From: Halorubrum sp. CBA1229
GTDB lineage: Archaea; Halobacteriota; Halobacteria; Halobacteriales; Haloferacaceae
Assembly: GCF_003721435.2 (NCBI RefSeq)
Contig: NZ_CP054585.1
Location: forward strand, 2,294,001 to 2,358,000
DNA length: 64,000 bases
Direction: 5' to 3'
The notes under the pieces are model-generated. The model saw only the letters and a program-made list of their open reading frames with translations, had not been told where the DNA came from and ran no database searches. Below are positions 2,307-41,603 of this stretch, in pieces; the stretch's first letter is position 1; each line of letters starts with the position of its first letter. Made by a program: the position numbers and the translations under genes.

Positions 2307-4267
2307 CCCGCGAGGCCGTCGAGGAGGTCGGCGGGGTCGTCGAGCGCGCTCGCGAGCGCCGCCACCGCGTCGCGGTCGGCCCGCTCCGGCGCCGCGCGCA
2401 CGACGACGGACTGCTCGCCCAGCGACACGAACTCGCAGTCGAGCCGCTCCGCCGTCTCGCGGAGGCCGAGCCCGACGTCGGCGTCGCCGGTGATCACCTT
2501 CCGCGCCGGGCTCTCGAACGCTCGCACGGTCAGCTCGTAGCCCGCGGTCGCCTCCGTCAGCTCGCTCCGCGACGCCGACCGCTCGTCGGCGAGCGCGTCG
2601 AGCGCGTCGTCGAGACTCCGGCGGAGCCCGGAGTCGGTCGGACGGTTGACGAACCGCAGGTCGCGGTCCACGACCGCGCCGAGCCCCGTCACGTCGGCCG
2701 GGTTGCCGGCGGGAACGACGAGCCCCCACTCGCGGGTCCAGCCGCCCAGATCGACCGTTTCGACCTCTCGATCCGTCGGTCCCGCGACGACCGCCACGTC
2801 CGGGACGCCGTCGCGCAGCCGCCGGAGCCCCTCGCGGGACCCGACCGGCAGGTACCGCGGGCGCTCCAACCGGTCGAGCAGGCGGTTGAGCGCCGGGTCG
2901 TCCTCGCCGACGCCGAGCAGGGTCGGCGGACGCACGTCCGGCGAGAACAGCTGCACCGTGACGCGCTCGCCTCGATCGAGGTACTCCGTGTCCGGGTCGA
3001 CGGCGACGACCCCGTCGGCCTCGACGAGGCTCGTCGTCGCCCCGGAGCCCTTGTCGACCGGGTAGACGAGCGGGCGGTCGTCGTCGTTCAGGTCGAGGAG
3101 CCCGACCGGCATCAGCCGCATGCGCCCCTCGCCGTAGCGCTCGCCGACGGCCATCCGACCCTCGACGGTCGCCGTCGCGGGCTCCGGTTGACCGGCCGCC
3201 TCGCGGATCGCGGGCGCGACGAACGTCCGGAAGATCGTGAGCGCCGACACGGGATAGCCGGGGAGCCCGACGTATGCCGACTCGCCGGTGCGATCGCTCT
3301 CGAGGGCCGCGTCGCTCCCGCCGCGGTCGAGGCGCCCGACGAGCATCGGCTTGCCGGGCTTGACCGCGACGCCGTGGAGCAGCAGCTCGCCGCGCTCCTC
3401 GATCACGCGGTAGATGACGTCGACCGCGCTCGCCGAGGTCGACCCCGACGAGAGCACGAGGTCGCACTCGTCGGCCGCGCGCCGGAGCAGCCGCTCCATC
3501 TCCTCGTAGTCGTCGCCGGCGTGCGGGTAGAGGACCGGCTCGCCGCCCGCCTCCTCGACGCCGGCGGCGATGGTCGTCGAGTTCACGTCGTATATCTCCC
3601 CGCGCGAGGGGTCGAGGGCCTCGCCCGGGCGCACCAGCTCGTCGCCGGTCGAGACGATCCCGACCCGCGGCTTCCCCTCGACCGGCACCTCGTCGACGCC
3701 GAGCGCGGAGAGCAGCCCGATCTCGCGGGGTGTCAGCCGCGTTCCCGGACCGAGCGCGCGGGCGCCGGCCGCGATGTCCGCGCCGGCGCTCATCACGTGG
3801 TCGCCCGGCGCGACGGCGGTCCGGATCGCGATCCGGTCGGGCTCGTCTTCGTCTTCCTCCGCGTCGGGGTCGTCCCTCTCCGCGTCCAGCTCGTCCGTGC
3901 GCTCGACCATCACCACGGCGTCGGCGCCCTCGGGCATCACGGCACCCGTGGAGATCTCGGCGCAGGTGCCCGGCGCGACGGTCACCGCTGGGGCGGCGCC
4001 GGCGTGGACCGACCCGACGAGGTCGAGCTCCGCGGGGTCAGCCTCGTCGGCGCCGAAGGTGTCGCGGGCCCGGACCGCGTACCCGTCCATCGAGGCCCGG
4101 TCGAAGCCGGGCACGTCGATCGCGGCGTCGATCCGCTCCGCGAGGACGCGGCCGCGGGCGTCCTCTAACGGGACCGTCTCCGGCTCCGGCGAGAGGTCGA
4201 GTGACTCGATCGCCGCGTGCGCGGCCTCGGGCGTCGCCAGGTCGCGGAACTCCTTGCGGTCGCTCAC
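2276..4267 (-). CDS. moeA: MoeA molybdopterin molybdenumtransferase fused to a PBP-like C-terminal domain
   Basis: A 663-residue two-part protein. Residues 1 to about 410 are MoeA, which inserts molybdate into adenylylated molybdopterin: the MDGYAVRARDTFG motif is near residue 60, STGAVMPEGADAVV near 108, and GLPGYPVSALTIF near 325. The usual TGGxSxG loop reads SSGSTSASAVD here. Residues about 430-650 look like a LysR/PBP substrate-binding domain (VAVVAGPTDREVETVDL, RFVNRPTDSG, ADVGLGLR), a fusion known from archaea and some bacteria and probably an oxyanion or cofactor sensor. It starts with GTG at 4267; that GTGA overlaps the TGA of the upstream moeA by 4 nt, so the two are translationally coupled. 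Confidence 0.93.
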   Translation of the reverse strand: MSDRKEFRDLATPEAAHAAIESLDLSPEPETVPLEDARGRVLAERIDAAIDVPGFDRASMDGYAVRARDTFGADEADPAELDLVGSVHAGAAPAVTVAPGTCAEISTGAVMPEGADAVVMVERTDELDAERDDPDAEEDEDEPDRIAIRTAVAPGDHVMSAGADIAAGARALGPGTRLTPREIGLLSALGVDEVPVEGKPRVGIVSTGDELVRPGEALDPSRGEIYDVNSTTIAAGVEEAGGEPVLYPHAGDDYEEMERLLRRAADECDLVLSSGSTSASAVDVIYRVIEERGELLLHGVAVKPGKPMLVGRLDRGGSDAALESDRTGESAYVGLPGYPVSALTIFRTFVAPAIREAAGQPEPATATVEGRMAVGERYGEGRMRLMPVGLLDLNDDDRPLVYPVDKGSGATTSLVEADGVVAVDPDTEYLDRGERVTVQLFSPDVRPPTLLGVGEDDPALNRLLDRLERPRYLPVGSREGLRRLRDGVPDVAVVAGPTDREVETVDLGGWTREWGLVVPAGNPADVTGLGAVVDRDLRFVNRPTDSGLRRSLDDALDALADERSASRSELTEATAGYELTVRAFESPARKVITGDADVGLGLRETAERLDCEFVSLGEQSVVVRAAPERADRDAVAALASALDDPADLLDGLAGYSRNSRNEP

Positions 4268-29397: not shown

Positions 29398-29411
29398 GGG
29401 GTCCCTTTTAA
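29398..29411. terminator. T-rich tract between converging moaB and trpG
   Basis: GGTCCCTTTTAAATAG lies just after moaB and covers the trpG stop. A GC hairpin-like sequence (CGCGCTGAAGCGCG, 29381-29394) precedes the T run, giving an intrinsic-terminator look on the plus strand. Confidence 0.4.
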
Positions 29412-30055
29412 ATAGACGCGAGGAAGTTCCGGATCAGGTCGTGGCCCGCAGCGGTCAACACGCTCTCCGGATGGAACTGCACCGCCTCGATCGGGTGGTC
29501 GCGGTGGCGGATCCCCATCACGATCTCGTCGCCCTCGTGGTCCGTCGTCGCCGTCACCGCGAAGGCGTCGGGGACCTCGGTGGCGGCCAGCGAGTGGTAC
29601 CGCCCGGCGCGGAACCCCTGATCGAGCCCGGCGAACACCCCCTTCCCGTCGTGGTCGACCGGGAACGCCTTCCCGTGGATCGGCTCCGGGGCGTGACCGA
29701 CGGTGCCGCCGTACTCGTACACGGCGGCCTCGAGGCCGAGGCAGACGCCGAGCGTCGGGACCTCGGGCGAGAGGTCGCGGAGCACGTCGGTCGTCACGCC
29801 CACGTCGCGCTCGTTCTTCGGGTGACCGGGACCGGGGCTGATGAGGATCGCGTCCGGCTCGGCGTCCCGGATCTCCGCGAGCGACGCGGTGTTTTTAAAC
29901 ACCGTCACGTCGATCGGCTCCGGTTCGCCGCTCGCTTCGGCTCCGGCGTCGTCCCCGTCGCCCGCCGCGCCCTCGTCGCCGAGCGTCTGGTCCGAGACGT
30001 ACTCGACGAGGTTGTACGTGAACGAGTCGAAGTTGTCGACGACGACGACGTTCAT
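29408..30055 (-). CDS. trpG: Anthranilate synthase glutamine amidotransferase subunit
   Basis: 215 residues, class I glutamine amidotransferase. The start VVVDNFDSFTYNLVEYV, the oxyanion loop ISPGPGHPKNE, the nucleophile motif GVCLGLEAAVYEYGG (Cys near residue 105) and the catalytic HPE in QFHPESVLTAAG are all present. It supplies ammonia from glutamine to TrpE. An acidic insert (GDEGAAGDGDDAGAEASGEP, about 27-46) is unusual. It is the last gene of trpDFEG; its ATG overlaps the trpE stop by 4 nt (ATGA). Confidence 0.96.
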   Translation of the reverse strand: MNVVVVDNFDSFTYNLVEYVSDQTLGDEGAAGDGDDAGAEASGEPEPIDVTVFKNTASLAEIRDAEPDAILISPGPGHPKNERDVGVTTDVLRDLSPEVPTLGVCLGLEAAVYEYGGTVGHAPEPIHGKAFPVDHDGKGVFAGLDQGFRAGRYHSLAATEVPDAFAVTATTDHEGDEIVMGIRHRDHPIEAVQFHPESVLTAAGHDLIRNFLASI

Positions 30056-31704
30056 TCGTCGACCTCCGCGCCGGCCGGGAGGGGGTCGTCCTCGGGCGAC
30101 TCCTCGTCCCGGATCCGGTCGATCGCGGTCAACACGCCGTCCATCTTCTGTTCGGTCTCCTCGTACTCGGCGGCCGGGTCGGAGTCGGCGACGAGCCCGG
30201 CGCCGGCCCGGACGGTCACCGCGGTCTCGGCCGGGTCGCTCGCGCCCGCCGGCGACTCGTCGAGCGTCGCGGTCCGGATCACGATGGCGAAGTCGGCGTC
30301 GCCGGTCCACGCGTAGTAGCCGACGCCGCCCCCGTACGCCTCCCGCGGGGTGGTCTCCAACTCCTCGATGATCTCCATCGCGCGCACCTTCGGCGCGCCC
30401 GTGAGGGTGCCGGCGGGGAACGTCGCGCGCGTCGCGTCGAACGCGTCGGCGTCGGCCGCCATCGTCCCCGTGACCGTCGACTCGATGTGCTGGACGTGGC
30501 TGTACTTCAGCACGTTCATGAACTCCTCGACGCGGACGGAGCCCGCCTCCGAGACGCGCCGGACGTCGTTGCGCGCGAGGTCGACGAGCATCGTGTGCTC
30601 GGCGCGCTCCTTCGGGTCGGCGAGCATCTCGCCGGCGAGCCGGCGGTCCTCGACCGGGCTCGTCCCGCGGGGGCAGGTGCCCGCGATCGGGTTCGAGACG
30701 ATCCGGTCGCCCTGCACAGACACCAGCGTCTCCGGGCTCGCGCCGACGATGCTCCGGTCGTCGTGGCGCAGCACGTACATGTACGGCGAGGGGTTCACCT
30801 CGCGGAGCGCCGCGTACAGCCCGAGCGAGTCCACCTCGCCGCGGAGCTCGCGGCTCCGCGAGATCACGCCCTGGTAGATGTCGCCGTCGAGGACGTGCCG
30901 CTTGGCGGTCCGGACCGCCTCCTCGTACTCCTCGCGGGGGTCGGCCGACTCCGACTCGACTCGGATCCCGTCGGGCTCCGGCGGCGCGGCCTCGCGCAGC
31001 TCAGCCCCCACGCGCTCCGCCTCGGCGACGAGGTCGTCGTAGACGGCCGCGGGGTCGTCGTCGACGCCGATCACGGGCGTGAAGACGAGCTCGGCGCTCC
31101 CCTCCTTCTCGTCGAAGACGACCGTGCGGGTCGTTAACGCGAACTCGGCGTCGGGGAACTCGGTCTCCGGCCGCTCGACGCCGACCTCCTCTAACCAGAG
31201 GTCGTAGACGGCCTCGTACGCGAGGAAGCCGACGAACCCGCCGGAGAGGATCTGGCGGTCGGTGTCGGGGAACCCGCGCAGGCTCACGTCCGGGAACGCC
31301 GCGCGGATCCGGTCGACCGCGTCGCCGGCGGCGGGGCCGATCTCTTTCTCAGATCCGTCCCCGACGAACTCGGCCGCGGGGCCGAGCCGAGTCACGTCGG
31401 TGCGGTCGGGGTGGACGGAGACGATCGCCTCGGGGTCGTAGCCGACGAACGAGTAGCGGGCGTGCCGGTCGGCCTTCCCGCCCGACGTGAACGCGCCGTC
31501 CGGGTCGCTGGAGGCGACCTTCTCGCCGGACTCCAAGAGGAACCCGTACGGCCCCTCGCCCACGAGGGTGGCGTACGTCGCGAGCGGGGTCACGTCGGCG
31601 TCGAGCGTCGCTGACGCGCGGACGACGACCGGGCGCTCGGCGTCGGCGGCGAGCTCGACGAACGCGGCTTTCGAGCGGTTCAGCGGGGAGCCGTCGTCGC
31701 TCAT
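30052..31704 (-). CDS. trpE: Anthranilate synthase component I
   Basis: 550 residues of the chorismate-binding family. Core motifs: DIYQGVISRSRE, VNPSPYMYVLRHDDRSIVGA (the NPSPYM phrase), IAGTCPRG, AEHTMLVDLARNDVRRV, FPAGTLTGAPKVRAMEII and YGGGVGYYAWTGDADFAI. It converts chorismate plus ammonia into anthranilate. The N-terminal PLATYATLVGEGPYGFLLES region near residue 45 holds the usual tryptophan feedback site. It overlaps trpF by 4 nt upstream and trpG by 4 nt downstream, ensuring balanced subunits. Confidence 0.97.
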   Translation of the reverse strand: MSDDGSPLNRSKAAFVELAADAERPVVVRASATLDADVTPLATYATLVGEGPYGFLLESGEKVASSDPDGAFTSGGKADRHARYSFVGYDPEAIVSVHPDRTDVTRLGPAAEFVGDGSEKEIGPAAGDAVDRIRAAFPDVSLRGFPDTDRQILSGGFVGFLAYEAVYDLWLEEVGVERPETEFPDAEFALTTRTVVFDEKEGSAELVFTPVIGVDDDPAAVYDDLVAEAERVGAELREAAPPEPDGIRVESESADPREEYEEAVRTAKRHVLDGDIYQGVISRSRELRGEVDSLGLYAALREVNPSPYMYVLRHDDRSIVGASPETLVSVQGDRIVSNPIAGTCPRGTSPVEDRRLAGEMLADPKERAEHTMLVDLARNDVRRVSEAGSVRVEEFMNVLKYSHVQHIESTVTGTMAADADAFDATRATFPAGTLTGAPKVRAMEIIEELETTPREAYGGGVGYYAWTGDADFAIVIRTATLDESPAGASDPAETAVTVRAGAGLVADSDPAAEYEETEQKMDGVLTAIDRIRDEESPEDDPLPAGAEVDE

Positions 31705-32345
31705 GCGAGCTCCATCTCCCGGCCCGCGTTCGCGACGAAGCGGGCCACTGCGTTGTGGTCCTTCCGGCCGTCCGCGAGCTCGACGCCGGAGGCGACGTCG
31801 ACGGCGAACGGGTCGGCGACGCGGACCGCTTCGGCGACGTTGTCGGCCGTGAGCCCGCCGGCGAGCACGACCGGCGACGTGAGCCGGGCCGCCAGGTCGC
31901 CCGTCTTCGCCCAGTCGTGGGTCTCGCCGGTGCCGCCGGCGCCGGCGTCGTCGGTGGAGTCGATCACGAGCGCGTCGGTGACGGCGTCGAACTCCTCGGC
32001 GCGGGCCGGGTCGTCGGCGTCGACCGCGAGCAGCACCTTCCGCTCGGTCTCCGCGCGGATGTACCGGATCTCGTCGGCGGTCCACTCGCCGTGGAGCTGG
32101 AGCGCGTCGGGCCCGATCGTCCGGACCAGTTCGACCGCGCGCTCGGCGGAGTCCGGCATCGTGACGAGCGTCGCGGTGACGAACGGCGGCACGTCCGCGA
32201 GCAGTTGCGCCGCCGTCGCGGGGTCGATCTCGCGCCCCGAGTCGACCGGCACCTCCGAGATCACGCCGACCGCGTCGGCGCCGGCGTCGATCGCGGCCCG
32301 GAGGTCCGCGCCGCGCGTGAGCCCGCAGATCTTCACCCGGGCCAT
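31701..32345 (-). CDS. trpF: Phosphoribosylanthranilate isomerase
   Basis: 214 residues, TIM barrel. The start MARVKICGLTRGADLRAAID is the classical PRAI signature with the catalytic Cys at residue 7; the catalytic Asp lies in the LLAVDADD/VIDSTDD strands. PVVLAGGLTADNVAEAV and DVASGVELADGRKDHNAV form the phosphate site. It performs the Amadori step of tryptophan synthesis. The ATG overlaps the trpD stop by one base. An upstream in-frame extension to 32405 is not used. Confidence 0.96.
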   Translation of the reverse strand: MARVKICGLTRGADLRAAIDAGADAVGVISEVPVDSGREIDPATAAQLLADVPPFVTATLVTMPDSAERAVELVRTIGPDALQLHGEWTADEIRYIRAETERKVLLAVDADDPARAEEFDAVTDALVIDSTDDAGAGGTGETHDWAKTGDLAARLTSPVVLAGGLTADNVAEAVRVADPFAVDVASGVELADGRKDHNAVARFVANAGREMELA

Positions 32346-33394
32346 CAGTCGTCGTCCTCCGGCCCCGCTGTCGCCCCCGTTTTCCGGGCTCCTCCGTCGC
32401 CGCACAGCGCCGCGAACTTCTCGGCGGCCGCGCCGGAGTCGATCGCCTCGGCGGCGCGCTCGACGCCCGCCTCGAGGGAGTCGGCCTCGCCGGCGACGTA
32501 GATCGCCGCGCCGGCGTTCGCGAGGATCAGGTCCCGTTTCGGGCCCGTGACGGAGCCGTCGACGATCCCGCGCAGGTCGGCCGCGTTCTCCTCGGGGGTC
32601 CCCCCGGAGACGGCCTCGATCGGGGCGCGGTCGAGCCCGAGGTCCTCGGGGGCGAGCGTGAACTCGGTGACGTCCTCGCCCTCGACCTCCGCGACGACCG
32701 TCTCGTCGTGGATCCCGATCTCGTCCATCCCCGCGCCGTGGACGACCAGCGCGTGCTCGACGGGCATGTGCGCGAGCGCCCGGGCGATCGTCCCGACCAG
32801 TTCGGGGTCGTAGACGCCGAGCACCTGCGCGTCGGCGCCAGCGGGGTTGGTGAGCGGGCCGAGCACGTTGAAGATCGTCCGCATCCCGAGCTCCTTGCGC
32901 GGGCCGATGACGGCCTTCATCGCCGGGTGGAAGACGGGCGCGAGCATGAACCCGATCCCGTCGGCCTCGATGGCGTCCTCGACGGCCGGCGGCTCGGCCT
33001 CGACGTCGGCGCCCGCGACCTCCAGCACGTCGGCGCTCCCCGAGGAGGAGGAGACGGAGTAGTTGCCGTGCTTGGCGACCGGGACGCCCGCGCCCGCGGC
33101 GACGATGGCGGCGGTCGTCGACACGTTGATCGTGTCGTGGTCGTCGCCGCCGGTCCCGCAGGTGTCGACGAGGGGCTCGCGGTCCGGCTCGATCGTCCGG
33201 GCGGCGTCGCGCATCCCCTGCGCGAAGCCGGCGATCTCGGCCTCCGTCTCGCCCTTCGCCCGGAGGGCGGCGAGGAGCGCGCCGATCTGCGCCTCGGTGG
33301 CCTCCTCGAAGACCAGCCGCGCGGCCTCGCGCGACTCCTCGACAGTCAGATCCGCCCCGTCCGTCACGCGTTCGACCGTGTCGTTGATATCCAT
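32345..33394 (-). CDS. trpD: Anthranilate phosphoribosyltransferase
   Basis: 349 residues. VDTCGTGGDDHDTINVSTTA (the PRPP/phosphate loop), AKHGNYSVSSSSGSADVLE and NVLGPLTNPAGADAQVLGVY are family hallmarks. It joins PRPP to anthranilate. It is the first gene of trpDFEG. The ATG at 33394 (MDINDTVERVTDG) is preferred to an upstream in-frame ATG at 33433, which lies between the operator boxes and would precede the expected transcript start. TrpC, TrpB and TrpA are not in the window. Confidence 0.96.
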   Translation of the reverse strand: MDINDTVERVTDGADLTVEESREAARLVFEEATEAQIGALLAALRAKGETEAEIAGFAQGMRDAARTIEPDREPLVDTCGTGGDDHDTINVSTTAAIVAAGAGVPVAKHGNYSVSSSSGSADVLEVAGADVEAEPPAVEDAIEADGIGFMLAPVFHPAMKAVIGPRKELGMRTIFNVLGPLTNPAGADAQVLGVYDPELVGTIARALAHMPVEHALVVHGAGMDEIGIHDETVVAEVEGEDVTEFTLAPEDLGLDRAPIEAVSGGTPEENAADLRGIVDGSVTGPKRDLILANAGAAIYVAGEADSLEAGVERAAEAIDSGAAAEKFAALCGDGGARKTGATAGPEDDD

Positions 33395-33426
33395 AGTGTT
33401 CACCGATGTATTACTTCGCGTTGTGA

Positions 33427-33451
33427 TGTACAAGTCTGTACACTAATTTAA
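33427..33451 (-). promoter_or_regulatory. trp operon promoter with two TGTACA boxes
   Basis: On the minus strand TTAAATTA (33444-33451) is a good TATA box. Directly downstream are two TGTACA hexamers (33437-33442 and 33427-33432), 4 bp apart, lying between the TATA box and the predicted start near 33420. TGTACA is the TRP-box consensus bound by TrpY in Methanothermobacter thermautotrophicus. A bound repressor here would block polymerase. Confidence 0.65.
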
Positions 33452-33511: not shown

Positions 33512-35224
33512 TCAGAACAGGCCGGGGACTAGGACGTACGTCAGCAGCATTCCGAACAGCCCGGCGAACAGCGCGAACAGCGCCATCGGGACGATGGCCT
33601 TCCGCAGCAGGTCACCCTCGCGTCCGGTGATCCCGACGACGCCGCAGATGGCGGCGACGTTCAGCACCGACACCATGTTACCGAGGCCGCCGCCGACGTT
33701 CTGGAGGCTGACGACGATCGTCCGGGAGAGCCCGACCGTCTCGGCGGCGTTGTACTGGAGCACGCTGAAGAGGATGTTCGACGACGTGTTGCTGCCGGTC
33801 ATGAACGACCCGATGGCGCCGACCCACGGCGAAACGACCGGCAGCAGGCCGCCGGCGCCCATGGCGAGCGCGCGGCTCAGCGCCTCCATCATCCCGAGCA
33901 GGTCGGCGGTGTTCGTCTGCGACTGGATCATGATCTGCGTCATCGAGACGGCGATGATCAGCGTGAGCGCCGCGGGCGCGACCTGCGTCACCGAGCGTCG
34001 CCAGGCCGCCCCCATCTCGTCGGCGTCCATCCCGTGGAGGAGACCGGTGAGGATCGCGATGGGGATGAACGGCATCGTCCCCGGGAGGTAGAGGTACTGG
34101 AGGGTGTAGCCGAGCTCGGTGCCTAGGATCGAGTCGAGGCTGACCGTGAAGCTCTGGATCCAGCCGAGCACGGCGACGCCGCCGACCGTGAGGTCCGGCC
34201 AGCGCGTGACGAGCAGCGCGAGCGCGACGAGCAGGTACGGCGTCCACGCGAGCAGCACGGGCATCTCTTTTCTCGGCCGGTCCCGAGCGATCTCGTCGAG
34301 TTCCAGCCCGCCGAGCCACGTGTCGGTCCACGTCGACTCGTCGGGGAAGTCCCACTCGCGCTCCGGGACGAGGACGTCGTTGTTCGCGAGCAGGAGGCCG
34401 ACCGCGAGCACCACGAACCCGGCCGCGATGTCGGGGAGCGCGGGGCCGACGAACCACGCGATCAGGAGCTGCGTCCCGCCGGTGACGGCGCCGAGGAGCA
34501 GCGCGAACGGCGCGATGGGGAGGGTGCTCCGCACGGCGCGCGAAACGCTCCGTCCGCCGTCGGCGTCGCCGAACCAGTAGGTCAGGAAGAACACGCCGAG
34601 CAGCCCCCAGAAGACGTACGTCACTCCGGTGACCACGCCGCTCCAGGCGGAGACCATCGAGAGGAACTCGCCGACGCCCATCGAGCCCGACAGCGCCGGT
34701 TCGATGACCGCGCCGGTGCCCCCGATGACGGGGGTGCCGGCCGCCCCGAACGGCGGGTTCGGCGCGTTGAAGAAGAGGCCGAACACCGCGGCGGCCAGCG
34801 GCGGAAACCCGAGGCCGATGAGCAGCGGCGCGGCGAGCGCGCCCGGCGTCCCGAAGCCGGCCGCCCCCTCGATGATCGTCATGAACCCGAGACCGACGAG
34901 GAGCACTTGGATGCGACGGTCCTCCTCGATCTGTCCGAAGTACCACCGGATCGTGGCGATGGCGCCGCTGCCTTCGAGGTAGTTCATCAGCAGGATGGCA
35001 CCGAACACGATGAGGATGATGTCCACGGCCTGGAGCACGCCGTACACCGCCGACGCGACAAGCCAGTTTGGCTCCATGCCCCAGTAGGTGAGCCCGATAC
35101 CGGTCGCGAGGAGCCAGCCGACCCCCATCGCTCGCGCCGCGGACCAACGGAGCCCCGCGAGCAGCACGAACGCGACGCCGATCGGCACGGCACCGACGAG
35201 TGCGAGTGAGAGCACGTTAGTCAT
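33512..35224 (-). CDS. lctP: L-lactate permease family transporter
   Basis: 570 residues, about 13-14 TM helices, standard LctP/LldP length. Family phrases: VGLGFMTIIEGAAGFGTPGALAAP split around residue 110, FNAPNPPFGAAGTPVIGG near 148, VSPWVGAIGSFMTGSNTSSN near 465 and LQNVGGGLGNMVSVLNVAA near 505. It imports lactate or glycolate with protons or Na+. The N-terminus MTNVLSLALVGAVPIGVAF is the first helix. No lactate dehydrogenase gene is adjacent; the 190-bp upstream region is AT-rich and holds likely promoters. Confidence 0.95.
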   Translation of the reverse strand: MTNVLSLALVGAVPIGVAFVLLAGLRWSAARAMGVGWLLATGIGLTYWGMEPNWLVASAVYGVLQAVDIILIVFGAILLMNYLEGSGAIATIRWYFGQIEEDRRIQVLLVGLGFMTIIEGAAGFGTPGALAAPLLIGLGFPPLAAAVFGLFFNAPNPPFGAAGTPVIGGTGAVIEPALSGSMGVGEFLSMVSAWSGVVTGVTYVFWGLLGVFFLTYWFGDADGGRSVSRAVRSTLPIAPFALLLGAVTGGTQLLIAWFVGPALPDIAAGFVVLAVGLLLANNDVLVPEREWDFPDESTWTDTWLGGLELDEIARDRPRKEMPVLLAWTPYLLVALALLVTRWPDLTVGGVAVLGWIQSFTVSLDSILGTELGYTLQYLYLPGTMPFIPIAILTGLLHGMDADEMGAAWRRSVTQVAPAALTLIIAVSMTQIMIQSQTNTADLLGMMEALSRALAMGAGGLLPVVSPWVGAIGSFMTGSNTSSNILFSVLQYNAAETVGLSRTIVVSLQNVGGGLGNMVSVLNVAAICGVVGITGREGDLLRKAIVPMALFALFAGLFGMLLTYVLVPGLF

Positions 35225-35724: not shown

Positions 35725-38256
35725 TCAGTCGTCGGCGGCCGCGGGGGCGACCGGATCCTCCGGCTCGGTCGGCGCCTCCGGGTCACTCGTCGCTTCCGGC
35801 CCGGCCGGTGCCTCCGGTTCCGCCGCCGACGGCTCGGACATCGGCTCCCACTCCATGCCGCGCTCGTACCGGAACGCGCGGTGGTCCCGGGTGGGGTCGA
35901 CGACCGTCAGCGAGAGCCACTCGTTGTCGAGCAGCTCGGTCACCTCGTCGTGGTCGGCCAGGGCGTCGGTGACGCGCTCGACCGGCGCGTGGAGGACCGC
36001 GGAGAGCCGGAGCGGCTGATGGTACGGCGTCTCGTGGTCGGCCATCAGCGACTGGCGGGGGAGGCCGGTCATCAGATCGCCGCCGTTGCCCTGGTAGACG
36101 CCGACGTTGCCGACGGGGTTCTGCGTCGCCTTCGACCCGCTCCCGTAGGCCGCGTTGTCGACGGTCGAGAAGTAGTACTGGGCGTTGATCCACTGGGTGA
36201 CGACCATCGGCCCCGCGAGGATCGACTCGAGCGCGTCGCCGTCGGGGTCGGTCGACCAGTCGTACGAGTGGAGGAACGCGCGGCCGTCGAGGTCGAGGTC
36301 GCTCGTCAGCTCGCGGGGCCCGACGACGAAGCCGGCGTTGCCGGCCAGCCCCCACTCGGGACGCGTCTCGGCCCAGTCGCCGGCGCGGCGCTCGGTCTCC
36401 TCGACGCCCGCCACGGCGTCGGCACCCATCGACGCGGCGCGCTCGGCGGCCGCGCCCTCGCGGGCGGCGTCGAGGTCCGCGCGCAACCGCGCGAGGTCGT
36501 CCGCGTGGCTCTCCGGCACGTCGCCGTACAGCTCGACCTCGTCGGTCGTCGTGTTGTGCTCGCCGGCGAGGAAGACGGTGTCGTCGGGGACGTCGAAGCC
36601 GCGCTCGCGCAGCGCCGCCTTCACACCGGCGTCGTTGCAGATCGACGCGAGGACGCGGGCGTTCGGCCCGCCGGGGTTGCCGGCGCACGCGCCGCAGTCC
36701 AGGCTCGAGTCGTACGGGTTGTTCGTCGTCTCGCTCGCGTGCCCGACGAAGGCGACGAGCCGGCCGAACTCCTCCCACCCCATCAGCTCGAAGGCGGTCG
36801 CGGCGTACTCGACCTTCTCTTCATCGGTCAGCCCCACGGGCAGGTCGCCCGCGTGAGTGTGCTGGTGGTGGACGGTCTGCTCGCAGAACTCGCGGTCGTC
36901 GGGCACCGCGTCGTCGGCGGCCCCCAGCAGGTCGCGGACGCGACCCGGGAGGAGCGTGCGGGCCGCGAGCGCGAGCCCGTAGCCGCTCCCGGCGTTCTCG
37001 ACGAAGCCGAAGGCGCTGGCGGGGTTCGTTTTCAGCTTCTTGACGACCTCGCCCGCGACCTCGCGGACGCTCGACCGGCGGTCGCGACGCGCCCGCGCCT
37101 CCCGCTCGGTCGGGATCTCGCTGATCCGGTGTTGCGGTTCCAAGATCGGCGGACAGGCGTCGACCGACGTCTCGGCGTCGTACCCCTGATACTCCATCGG
37201 GACGCCGAAGAAGCCGGCGTAGCCGTGGGTCTCGTAGTCGCCCTCGGCCTCGACGTGACGCCGGATCACCTCCGAGCGGGTGTCGATGCAGAACACCAGC
37301 TGCGCGTCGGGGCGGTCCGACGGTCCGCCTCCCGCGGCCGGCGACTCGCCCTCGGCTGCCGGCTCGCTCTCGGCCAACGCCCGGCTCTCGGCGGCGACGC
37401 GGTCGACGACCTCGGTGCGGTAGCTCGCCTCCCACGCGCTCAGGAACGCCTCGGCGAGCTCGTCGGCCGGGTCGGCGTCAGCGGCGTCGGGGCCGGTGGC
37501 GGCGTCGAGTTCGACGCCGAACCCGTCGAGCAGCGCGAGACGCACCGCGAGGTACTCCGCCAGCGTGATCGGGCACGCCGACTGCCACGCGCCGTCGTCG
37601 TCCGCGCGCCGCTTGATGAAGCCGGTCCACCCCGGGAGCGCGGCCAGCTGCGCCTCGAAGATCGGTACCCACTGGCTCTCCGGGTACGGGTCGAGGACGG
37701 CCTCGATCGCTTCGGTCGGGGTCTCGGGGAGCGACGCGAGGATCCCCTCGTCGGGGACCGCGGCGTCGTGTGCCGCCACCTCGCGGAAGGCGGCGTAGAA
37801 CCCGTCGTCGCGGTCCGGCATCGACCACGCGGCGTGTCCCTCGTCGAGGAAGGCCGAGAGCCACTTCGTCAGCACGTGGTCGACCCGCTCGGCCCCCTCG
37901 TCAGACGGGGCCGCGTCCTCGTCAGACGGCGCCGACTCGACCGCGGCGTCCACGCGCTCCAGCAGCGTCTCCGGGTCGGCCTCGTAGCCGCGGTCAGCGA
38001 GCTCCGACTCGAGCGTCTCCCGGTCGATCCGCCCGTCGTCGAGCGCGGCCCGGAACGCCTCCCGGCTCGGGTAGCCGCGGCCGCCCAGCAGGTCGGCCGC
38101 CTGCGTCACCGCCTCGTCGAACGGCACGTTCTCGAACCCCGAAAGGGGGTTGGCGGTCACGAACGAGTGGATCGGCCAGACCGACCCGACCGTCGCCGCC
38201 GCCTCGTCGATGCTGTCGTGGATGACGCTGTCGTCGATGGTTGATTCGGTGCTCAT
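35725..38256 (-). CDS. dabA: DabA, carbonic-anhydrase-like subunit of the DAB inorganic carbon transporter
   Basis: 843 residues, the DUF2309/DabA family. Zinc-site residues match those known in Halothiobacillus DabA: CIDTRSE (Cys and Asp near residues 323-325), GHASETTNNPY (His near 502) and DCGACAG (Cys near 517). WPIHSFVTANPLSGF at the N-terminus and VTQWINAQYYFSTVDNAAYG near 690 are family-typical. With DabB it hydrates CO2 to bicarbonate vectorially, driven by the ion gradient, on the cytoplasmic face. Acidic inserts (about 105-125, 268-285, 320 region) and a Pro/Glu tail are halophilic additions. Its ATG overlaps the dabB stop by 1 nt. Confidence 0.95.
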   Translation of the reverse strand: MSTESTIDDSVIHDSIDEAAATVGSVWPIHSFVTANPLSGFENVPFDEAVTQAADLLGGRGYPSREAFRAALDDGRIDRETLESELADRGYEADPETLLERVDAAVESAPSDEDAAPSDEGAERVDHVLTKWLSAFLDEGHAAWSMPDRDDGFYAAFREVAAHDAAVPDEGILASLPETPTEAIEAVLDPYPESQWVPIFEAQLAALPGWTGFIKRRADDDGAWQSACPITLAEYLAVRLALLDGFGVELDAATGPDAADADPADELAEAFLSAWEASYRTEVVDRVAAESRALAESEPAAEGESPAAGGGPSDRPDAQLVFCIDTRSEVIRRHVEAEGDYETHGYAGFFGVPMEYQGYDAETSVDACPPILEPQHRISEIPTEREARARRDRRSSVREVAGEVVKKLKTNPASAFGFVENAGSGYGLALAARTLLPGRVRDLLGAADDAVPDDREFCEQTVHHQHTHAGDLPVGLTDEEKVEYAATAFELMGWEEFGRLVAFVGHASETTNNPYDSSLDCGACAGNPGGPNARVLASICNDAGVKAALRERGFDVPDDTVFLAGEHNTTTDEVELYGDVPESHADDLARLRADLDAAREGAAAERAASMGADAVAGVEETERRAGDWAETRPEWGLAGNAGFVVGPRELTSDLDLDGRAFLHSYDWSTDPDGDALESILAGPMVVTQWINAQYYFSTVDNAAYGSGSKATQNPVGNVGVYQGNGGDLMTGLPRQSLMADHETPYHQPLRLSAVLHAPVERVTDALADHDEVTELLDNEWLSLTVVDPTRDHRAFRYERGMEWEPMSEPSAAEPEAPAGPEATSDPEAPTEPEDPVAPAAADD

Positions 38257-39755
38257 TAGGCGCCTCCGTCGTCGTACTCTCCGGTGTTCGTCAGGACGGT
38301 ACCGGGGGACGGGTGCCCCGCGTTCAGCAGCGCGACGTAGAGGCGCCGGCTGCGCTCGTGGACGCCGGCCTCCATCGCGAGGTACGCCGCGAGGAAGGCG
38401 ACGGCCACGAGACCGTGGACCGCGGTCAGCTCGGTCGGCGCGGTGACGACCGGGAGCCCGGCCAAGAGCGTCGAAACGGCCCTGTACACCAGCGCGTACA
38501 CGGTGATTGCCGGAAGGAAGGCCAGCGGGACCGCGCCGTAGCGGACCCCCGCCGGGAGCTCGGCGTGCCCGACCGCGCCGCGCGCCGCGTGGAGGGTAGT
38601 GAAAACCACGAACAGGACGAGCAGGAGACCGCTGTCGACGCTCGTCCCTTTCCCCGTCAGCAGCACGAAGACCGCGCCCCCCGCCAGTCCGGTCGCCAGC
38701 GTCACGGCGAGATCGAGGACGCGGAATCCGCCGGTCGCGTCCTTCGCCTTCTCGGCCGGGCTCGTCCGCTCGATCCCGCCGCCCGCGCCGAGGAACTGGT
38801 ACGCCTTATAAAACCCGTGCAGAATCAGATGGGTGATCGCGGCCCCGAAGAAGCCGAGGCCGGCCTGCATGATCATGAATCCCATCTGCCCCACCGTGGA
38901 GCAGGCCAACTTGCTCTTAACGTCCGGGCGGACGGACTTGAGGAGCTTCCCAAGCAGCGCGCTGGCCGCGCCGACCGCGACGATCGCGAGCATGAGGGTC
39001 GCGTCGCCGGTGACGACCGGCGCGAAGCGTAACAGGAGGACGCCGCCGGCGTTGACGAAGCCGGCGTGCATCAGCGCCGACGCCGGCGTGGGCGCGGTCA
39101 TCGAGGAGAGGAGCCAGCCGTGGAACGGCACGAGGGCGGACTGGATCATCGCCGCGAGGACGAGCGAGCCGGCGGCGACGAGCCATATCGGCCCGCCGAG
39201 CGCGTCGGCGGCCGCGGCGACGCCCGATACCGTCGTCGCGCCGGTCGCCCACCAGAGCGCCGCCAGCGCGACGCCGAGGAGCGCGCTGCTGGCGACGAAG
39301 TACCGCCGGGCGACCGCCGCGGCCGCCCGCGCCTGCTCCCAGCCGTCGACGATGCCGATCAGCCTCGCCATCGCCAGCCCCATCGCCAGCCACAGCAGTC
39401 CGAACAGGGCGAGGTGGTCGGCCGCGACGAGCGTCATCACGACCGTTACGAACCCGAACACGGTGAGGAAGAACTCCGTCTCGTGGGCGCTCCCCGCCAT
39501 GTAGCGGCGCGAGTAGCTGTGGACGACGCCGCCGAAGAAGGCGACGACGACCCACATCAGGACGGTCAGCCCGTCGACGGCGACGACCCCGGGGATCTCC
39601 GGAGCGAACCCGAACCGAACTCGGCCGACGAGCGCGGCGACGCTCGCGGCGAACAGCGACCACGCGAGCCACGTGAGTGCGACGGGCACGACCGGCCTCT
39701 CGGCCGTCGTGTCCGGGAGCGCTCCGACCGCCGGTTTCGAGGTAGACCCTGACAT
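38256..39755 (-). CDS. dabB: DabB, NuoL-like proton/cation-conducting subunit of the DAB transporter
   Basis: 499 residues, about 13 TM helices, of the NuoL/MrpA antiporter-like family. HSYSRRYMAG near residue 80, PFHGWLLSSMTAPTPASALMHAG near 210 and KLACSTVGQMGFMIMQAGLG near 283 carry the buried Lys/His/Glu of the ion channel; HGFYKAYQFLGAG follows. It couples ion entry to DabA CO2 hydration. It is the first gene of a tight dabBA operon. The region upstream is AT-rich with an inverted repeat that may be an operator. No neighbouring RuBisCO is seen. Confidence 0.93.
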   Translation of the reverse strand: MSGSTSKPAVGALPDTTAERPVVPVALTWLAWSLFAASVAALVGRVRFGFAPEIPGVVAVDGLTVLMWVVVAFFGGVVHSYSRRYMAGSAHETEFFLTVFGFVTVVMTLVAADHLALFGLLWLAMGLAMARLIGIVDGWEQARAAAAVARRYFVASSALLGVALAALWWATGATTVSGVAAAADALGGPIWLVAAGSLVLAAMIQSALVPFHGWLLSSMTAPTPASALMHAGFVNAGGVLLLRFAPVVTGDATLMLAIVAVGAASALLGKLLKSVRPDVKSKLACSTVGQMGFMIMQAGLGFFGAAITHLILHGFYKAYQFLGAGGGIERTSPAEKAKDATGGFRVLDLAVTLATGLAGGAVFVLLTGKGTSVDSGLLLVLFVVFTTLHAARGAVGHAELPAGVRYGAVPLAFLPAITVYALVYRAVSTLLAGLPVVTAPTELTAVHGLVAVAFLAAYLAMEAGVHERSRRLYVALLNAGHPSPGTVLTNTGEYDDGGA

Positions 39756-41129: not shown

Positions 41130-41603
41130 TTAGGAGTCGGTCTCGGCGTCGAACGTCCCGAACGGCGTCGTCTCGTGGCTCCGCACGAGGACCTCGTCGG
41201 CGACGGTGAGCCCCATGTCGAGTAGCTCCTGTGCCACGGGCGTGATGTCGTCGTCCGACTCGCCGACGACCGTCACGAGGAGGTTCTGCTCGCCGGTGAC
41301 CAGCTCCTGGACCGAGACGACGCCGTCGACCTCGAGAATCTCCGGCAGCAGCTCGCCGCGCTCGGGTATCGACGCGGTGCAGTAGAGCAGCATCCGGAGC
41401 GGGTACCCCGACCGCTGGTAGTCGACCTCGGCGCTGTACCCCTTGATCACCCCGTCGGACTCGAGGCGCTGGATGCGCTTGCGGACGGTGCTGTCCGAGG
41501 TCCCGGCCCGCTCGGCGATGTCACCGGACGAGGTGTTCCGCGCGTCTTCCTGTAACGCGTACAGGATCGCCCTGTCCACGTCGTCGATCGCTTCGTCGGC
41601 CAT
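41130..41603 (-). CDS. Lrp/AsnC-family transcriptional regulator
   Basis: 157 residues. The N-terminal winged HTH (DDVDRAILYALQEDARN, IAERAGTSDSTVRKRIQRLESDGVIKGYSAEVD) is followed by a RAM ligand-binding domain (LLVTVVGESDDDITPVAQELLDMGL, VLVRSHETTPFGTFD). Such octameric regulators sense amino acids. Whether it controls trp or dab is unknown; its own promoter at about 41634-41645 is unusually AT-rich. Converging with the amidohydrolase gene, it ends 24 bp after that gene's stop. Confidence 0.94.
   Translation of the reverse strand: MADEAIDDVDRAILYALQEDARNTSSGDIAERAGTSDSTVRKRIQRLESDGVIKGYSAEVDYQRSGYPLRMLLYCTASIPERGELLPEILEVDGVVSVQELVTGEQNLLVTVVGESDDDITPVAQELLDMGLTVADEVLVRSHETTPFGTFDAETDS

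Follow-up and report, generated by a model that had tools for sequence, protein, structure and literature searches.

Phased TGTACA boxes at both trp operons point to probable TrpY-type tryptophan control in haloarchaea

In our reading, held with a probability of roughly 0.8, two TGTACA hexamers in the trpDFEG promoter of Halorubrum sp. CBA1229 are the core TRP boxes of an operator that a TrpY-family repressor would bind. The boxes match the known sequence, keep a 10-bp phase next to the TATA box, are conserved before trpD in other haloarchaea and recur at the second trp operon, trpCBA, and the genome encodes a TrpY-family protein. From these observations we infer that this protein binds the boxes, with tryptophan as ligand and repression as effect. 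To our knowledge, there are few proven cases of amino-acid-responsive repression in archaea. TGTACA is reportedly the TRP-box consensus of Methanothermobacter TrpY, which is said to act by TBP occlusion (work of Xie and Reeve in 2005). The kind of system is already known, as M. thermautotrophicus TrpY represses trp by binding TRP boxes (PMC6737238). That study, from 2019, did not settle what TrpY homologues do in haloarchaea and many methanogens, and stated that these branches had yet to be examined (PMC6737238). Apart from a remark in that study, our literature search found no work on haloarchaeal TrpY, and no earlier report of TRP-box control in haloarchaea and most of the phylum.

A phased box pair in the trpDFEG promoter

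On the minus strand of the window, as we call the whole stretch of 64,000 nucleotides analysed, the promoter reads TTAAATTAG-TGTACA-GACT-TGTACA-TCACAA...ATG, with the trpD start codon at 33394-33392, and is followed by trpD, trpF, trpE and trpG (Table 1). The first-pass annotation had placed a pair of TGTACA hexamers between TATA box and expected start. Both hexamers are present, and their 4-bp gap corresponds to a 10-bp period. It overlooked two weaker boxes on the same phase, AATACA and TGAACA, the latter overlapping the GGTG ribosome-binding-like motif that precedes the trpD start codon. Archaeal transcription starts about 25 bp downstream of the TATA box by the established promoter spacing, which puts boxes 1 and 2 before the predicted +1 and the boxes at offsets 30 and 40 in the leader.

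Table 1. Promoter elements and genes of the trpDFEG operon (feature, window positions, strand, basis)
TATA box TTAAATTA, trpDFEG promoter	33444..33451	-	sequence
TRP box 1, TGTACA, lattice offset 0	33437..33442	-	sequence; mean mismatch 0.87 over 38 divergent promoters
TRP box 2, TGTACA, lattice offset 10	33427..33432	-	sequence; mean mismatch 0.47 over 38 divergent promoters
Degenerate TRP box AATACA, lattice offset 30	33407..33412	-	mean mismatch 1.53, offset unused in anchoring
Degenerate TRP box TGAACA, lattice offset 40, directly 5' of trpD start codon	33397..33402	-	
trpD, anthranilate phosphoribosyltransferase, operon gene 1	32345..33394	-	TIGR01245, 414 bits
trpF, phosphoribosylanthranilate isomerase	31701..32345	-	
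trpE, anthranilate synthase component I (archaeal)	30052..31704	-	TIGR01820, 576 bits
trpG, anthranilate synthase component II	29408..30055	-	NF041322, 346 bits

Pattern searches for further paired sites, as the annotation had proposed, found exact TGTACA-n4-TGTACA only once in the 3.58-Mb genome, before trpD. Within the window, a pair with up to two mismatches occurs once, compared with 0.05 in shuffled sequence. Single TGTACA hexamers number 10, against 1.1 expected from dinucleotide shuffles; because they are commoner than in shuffles, a lone box is weak evidence, and the weight rests on the phased pair and its conservation.

The boxes are conserved before trpD and recur at trpCBA

We compared 80 trpD loci, nearly all from haloarchaea, and added loci from further genomes. 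The exact pair is present in nearly all Halorubrum trpD promoters compared, and in a separate draw of 24 Halorubrum genomes it occurred somewhere in all 24. Poor conservation before trpD in relatives had been named as a result that would count against TrpY control; instead, the boxes are kept, with 113 of 128 haloarchaeal trpD promoters carrying a 10-bp-spaced pair (up to two mismatches) in the proximal 90 bp. By the same measure, no pair was found in the flank just upstream (0 of 126), and control spacings of 9 and 11 gave none in the promoters (0 of 128). For a divergent set, we thinned the trpD promoters to 38 with less than 80% identity and aligned them on boxes 1 and 2. Here, the mean mismatch to TGTACA was 1.53 at offset 30 as compared to 5.63 at 29 and 5.76 at 31, and at offset 40 it was 2.53 (1.71 when all promoters were included). 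Given that offsets 30 and 40 are box-like although they were not used for the alignment, the operator is a lattice at 0, 10, 30 and 40. A TTAA-type element is conserved at the TATA position across the 38-promoter set; farther upstream, beyond the promoter, conservation is lost.

The trpCBA operon carries the same 10-bp lattice (offsets 0, 10 and 20) class-wide in haloarchaea. Upstream of trpC, the CBA1229 sequence is TTA-TGAACA-GATA-CGTGCA-TTAG-TGTACA-GTA-ATG, and the trpC mRNA is predicted to be leaderless. Anchoring 28 trpC promoters on the TATA box, independently of the boxes, yielded mean mismatches of 0.82, 2.54 and 0.86 at offsets 0, 10 and 20 and of 3.1-5.7 between them. These means are weakened by three promoters in the set whose anchor fell 6 bp too early, and three loci beyond the 28 had no anchor. 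Exact TGTACA-n14-TGTACA sites, many of them directly preceding trpC, occurred in 55 of 145 genomes; the control pattern, in reversed form, was present in 1 of 145. CBA1229 is not one of these 55 genomes, since the first of its trpC boxes reads TGAACA.

Box pairs outside the haloarchaea and at other genes

Among 20 trp loci from other families of the phylum, 19 have a pair at the operon head. The best 10-bp pair (up to two mismatches) lies directly 5' of the gene taken as the operon's first in 16 loci, two of them with a hand-set start position (L250 and L256), and 5' of trpB, which proved to be the first gene, in three more. Family f20, the one family without the boxes, has no promoter pair in any of eight loci (one in the 20-locus set plus seven more); the one two-mismatch match, at position 3816 of locus L345, looks like coding sequence. 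In the three f20 TrpY sequences compared, DRKVVV..I replaces DRRVVD.TT in the recognition helix segment, around residues 40-62. That missing boxes and an altered helix coincide in this family fits TrpY as the binder, but it counts as a single evolutionary event.

Across 293 haloarchaeal genomes we counted 55 exact TGTACA-n4-TGTACA sites, about 41 of them at trpD; four false negatives of the assignment pattern and seven other sites were assigned by eye from sequence. In one genus, a divergent gene for a sodium-dependent (NSS) transporter, NF037979, has an exact pair directly before its start codon in two genomes (L091:1501 and L092:1501), and a third genome of that genus (L323) has TGAACA-GACC-TGTACA at the same place. 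Most sodium-symporter promoters compared are without boxes, which occur in only one subfamily in one genus; the boxed protein is possibly a tryptophan transporter.

In four Halorubrum genomes (L120-L123; sites 3281, 3195, 3504 and 3172) the exact pair occurs a second time, as TGTACAACCCTGTACA; it precedes a gene for a TFB-like protein (transcription factor B) by about 130 bp and is divergent from a peptidase-like gene, and near-matches recur in other Halorubrum. As the gene it precedes is a TFB gene and not a trp gene, we set this pair aside as a trp site; it is possibly a different conserved element.

A TrpY-family protein is encoded away from the trp operons

The first-pass annotation had called for a genome search for a TrpY homologue and noted that the regulator was not in the window. 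An ACT-domain search of the genome retrieved one candidate of 166 residues, a single-copy match to TrpY_fam (NF053754; 232.5 bits, cut-off 180), and its gene indeed lies elsewhere, at about 1483630-1484130 of contig C1, directly upstream of radA and not adjacent to trp. PF01842 scores above cut-off in this protein. Because Pfam did not recognise the N-terminal half, assignment of the DNA-binding part rests on the NCBIfam match and an AlphaFold model (pLDDT 85.6), in which the N-terminal half is helix-turn-helix-like and includes a beta hairpin, and the C-terminal half has an ACT fold. Among solved structures, the ACT half comes closest to amino-acid-binding ACT domains, led by IlvN with valine; a PDB search by sequence returned nothing useful. 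Within the family, the segment around residues 40-62 is highly conserved.

NF053754 exceeds its cut-off in all 255 good haloarchaeal genomes, mostly as a single copy, and is found in 146 of 147 genomes of the phylum, mostly once. Since the family is almost universal, its co-occurrence with the boxes is weak evidence. Of 60 regions upstream of TrpY genes, 59 have no box pair (up to two mismatches), and thus give no sign of the autoregulation known from the type system.

Discussion

The suggestion that tryptophan control by a TrpY-like protein extends to a haloarchaeon gains support, at the level of sequence, from the TrpY-family gene, the conservation of the boxes and their presence at trpCBA. 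In the mechanism we propose, the TrpY-family protein, with its helix-turn-helix and ACT parts and presumably as a dimer, would bind TGTACA boxes one helical turn apart on a single face of the DNA. Sitting between TATA box and start, it would block TBP/TFB or RNA polymerase under tryptophan-rich conditions, at the trpDFEG and the trpCBA promoter alike.

Boxes of this kind could instead be a genuine operator, responsive to tryptophan or aromatic amino acids, that is bound by a different haloarchaeal regulator, such as an Lrp/AsnC-type or other helix-turn-helix protein. Lrp-type regulators are common, with one encoded in the window at 41130-41603, and in Thermococcus trp is controlled by Tar, a different protein (PMC6737238). 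Moreover, function does not follow from homology by itself: in T. kodakarensis, a homologue with 42% identity to MtTrpY fails to bind the trp promoter (PMC6737238). Still, a box and 10-bp phase kept throughout the phylum need an equally conserved binder, and TrpY is one such family and is known to bind TRP boxes; we consider another binder unlikely.

No operator at all would be involved if the sequence were an RNA attenuator, or a feature that haloarchaeal core promoters or 5'-UTRs have in general. Such an origin would suit boxes that adjoin the TATA box and, at offset 40, overlap the GGTG motif, but the genome has only one exact pair, the predicted leaderless trpC mRNA is boxed nonetheless, and the promoters of the TrpY gene and of most sodium symporters compared are without boxes. 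Boxes 1 and 2 of trpD, being upstream of the predicted start, should not be in the RNA, which argues against an attenuator, and we regard this whole class of explanation as very improbable. Chance, or common ancestry of closely related promoters, is hardly credible: although many sampled genomes are Halorubrum and single TGTACA hexamers exceed shuffles in the window, it is contradicted by the signal in 38 promoters of less than 80% identity, by the pair in 19 of 20 loci outside the haloarchaea and by the unconserved sequence upstream of the promoter.

Given the conserved boxes and the nearly universal TrpY family, a switch proven in a single methanogen is probably ancient and widespread. We think it reasonably likely that TRP-box control is ancestral to the phylum Halobacteriota and shared with Methanothermobacter, that it works through two to four boxes on a 10-bp lattice, that it survived the division of trp into separate operons, and that its one loss came with a changed recognition helix in TrpY. 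On the same reading, the regulon of one haloarchaeal genus would extend to a sodium-coupled transporter, possibly for tryptophan.

As in the M. thermautotrophicus trpEGCFBAD operon, repeated TGTACA boxes in the trp core promoter go together with a TrpY-family protein. Unlike in that organism, the haloarchaeal trp genes form two unlinked operons, each boxed; the boxes keep strictly to a 10-bp lattice, against or downstream of the TATA box; and trpC seems to lack a leader. Whereas M. thermautotrophicus trpY is divergent from trp and autoregulated via TRP boxes, the haloarchaeal regulator gene is unlinked and without boxes, and its product is a putative binder. In outline, the proposed switch also resembles E. 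coli TrpR and TyrR, repressors that respond to an aromatic amino acid. TrpR is unrelated as a protein and has a different operator; TyrR contains an ACT domain, with 2jhe appearing in the list of fold matches, and differs in architecture. Thermococcus kodakarensis likewise has both a trp operon and a member of the TrpY family, TkTrpY (TK1227); this protein differs in that it does not bind the trp promoter, trp being under Tar (PMC6737238).

The boxes assign a likely function to a protein present in almost every genome of the phylum and would represent a regulator-operator pair retained over very long times. They also offer a concrete and cheap test in tractable hosts such as Haloferax volcanii.

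Several features near the operon were observed in passing. Upstream of the trpD promoter, many haloarchaea other than Halorubrum (many Natrialbaceae and others; L051-L088) share a conserved TTGAAGGTTTCGAATCG element. In the window, an LctP-type lactate permease gene (33512-35224, minus strand) lies directly upstream of the trp operon. At higher positions on the same strand (35725-39755), the gene for a large protein without NCBIfam match adjoins that of a NuoL-like antiporter subunit, an arrangement that we take to resemble the DabA-DabB inorganic carbon transporter.
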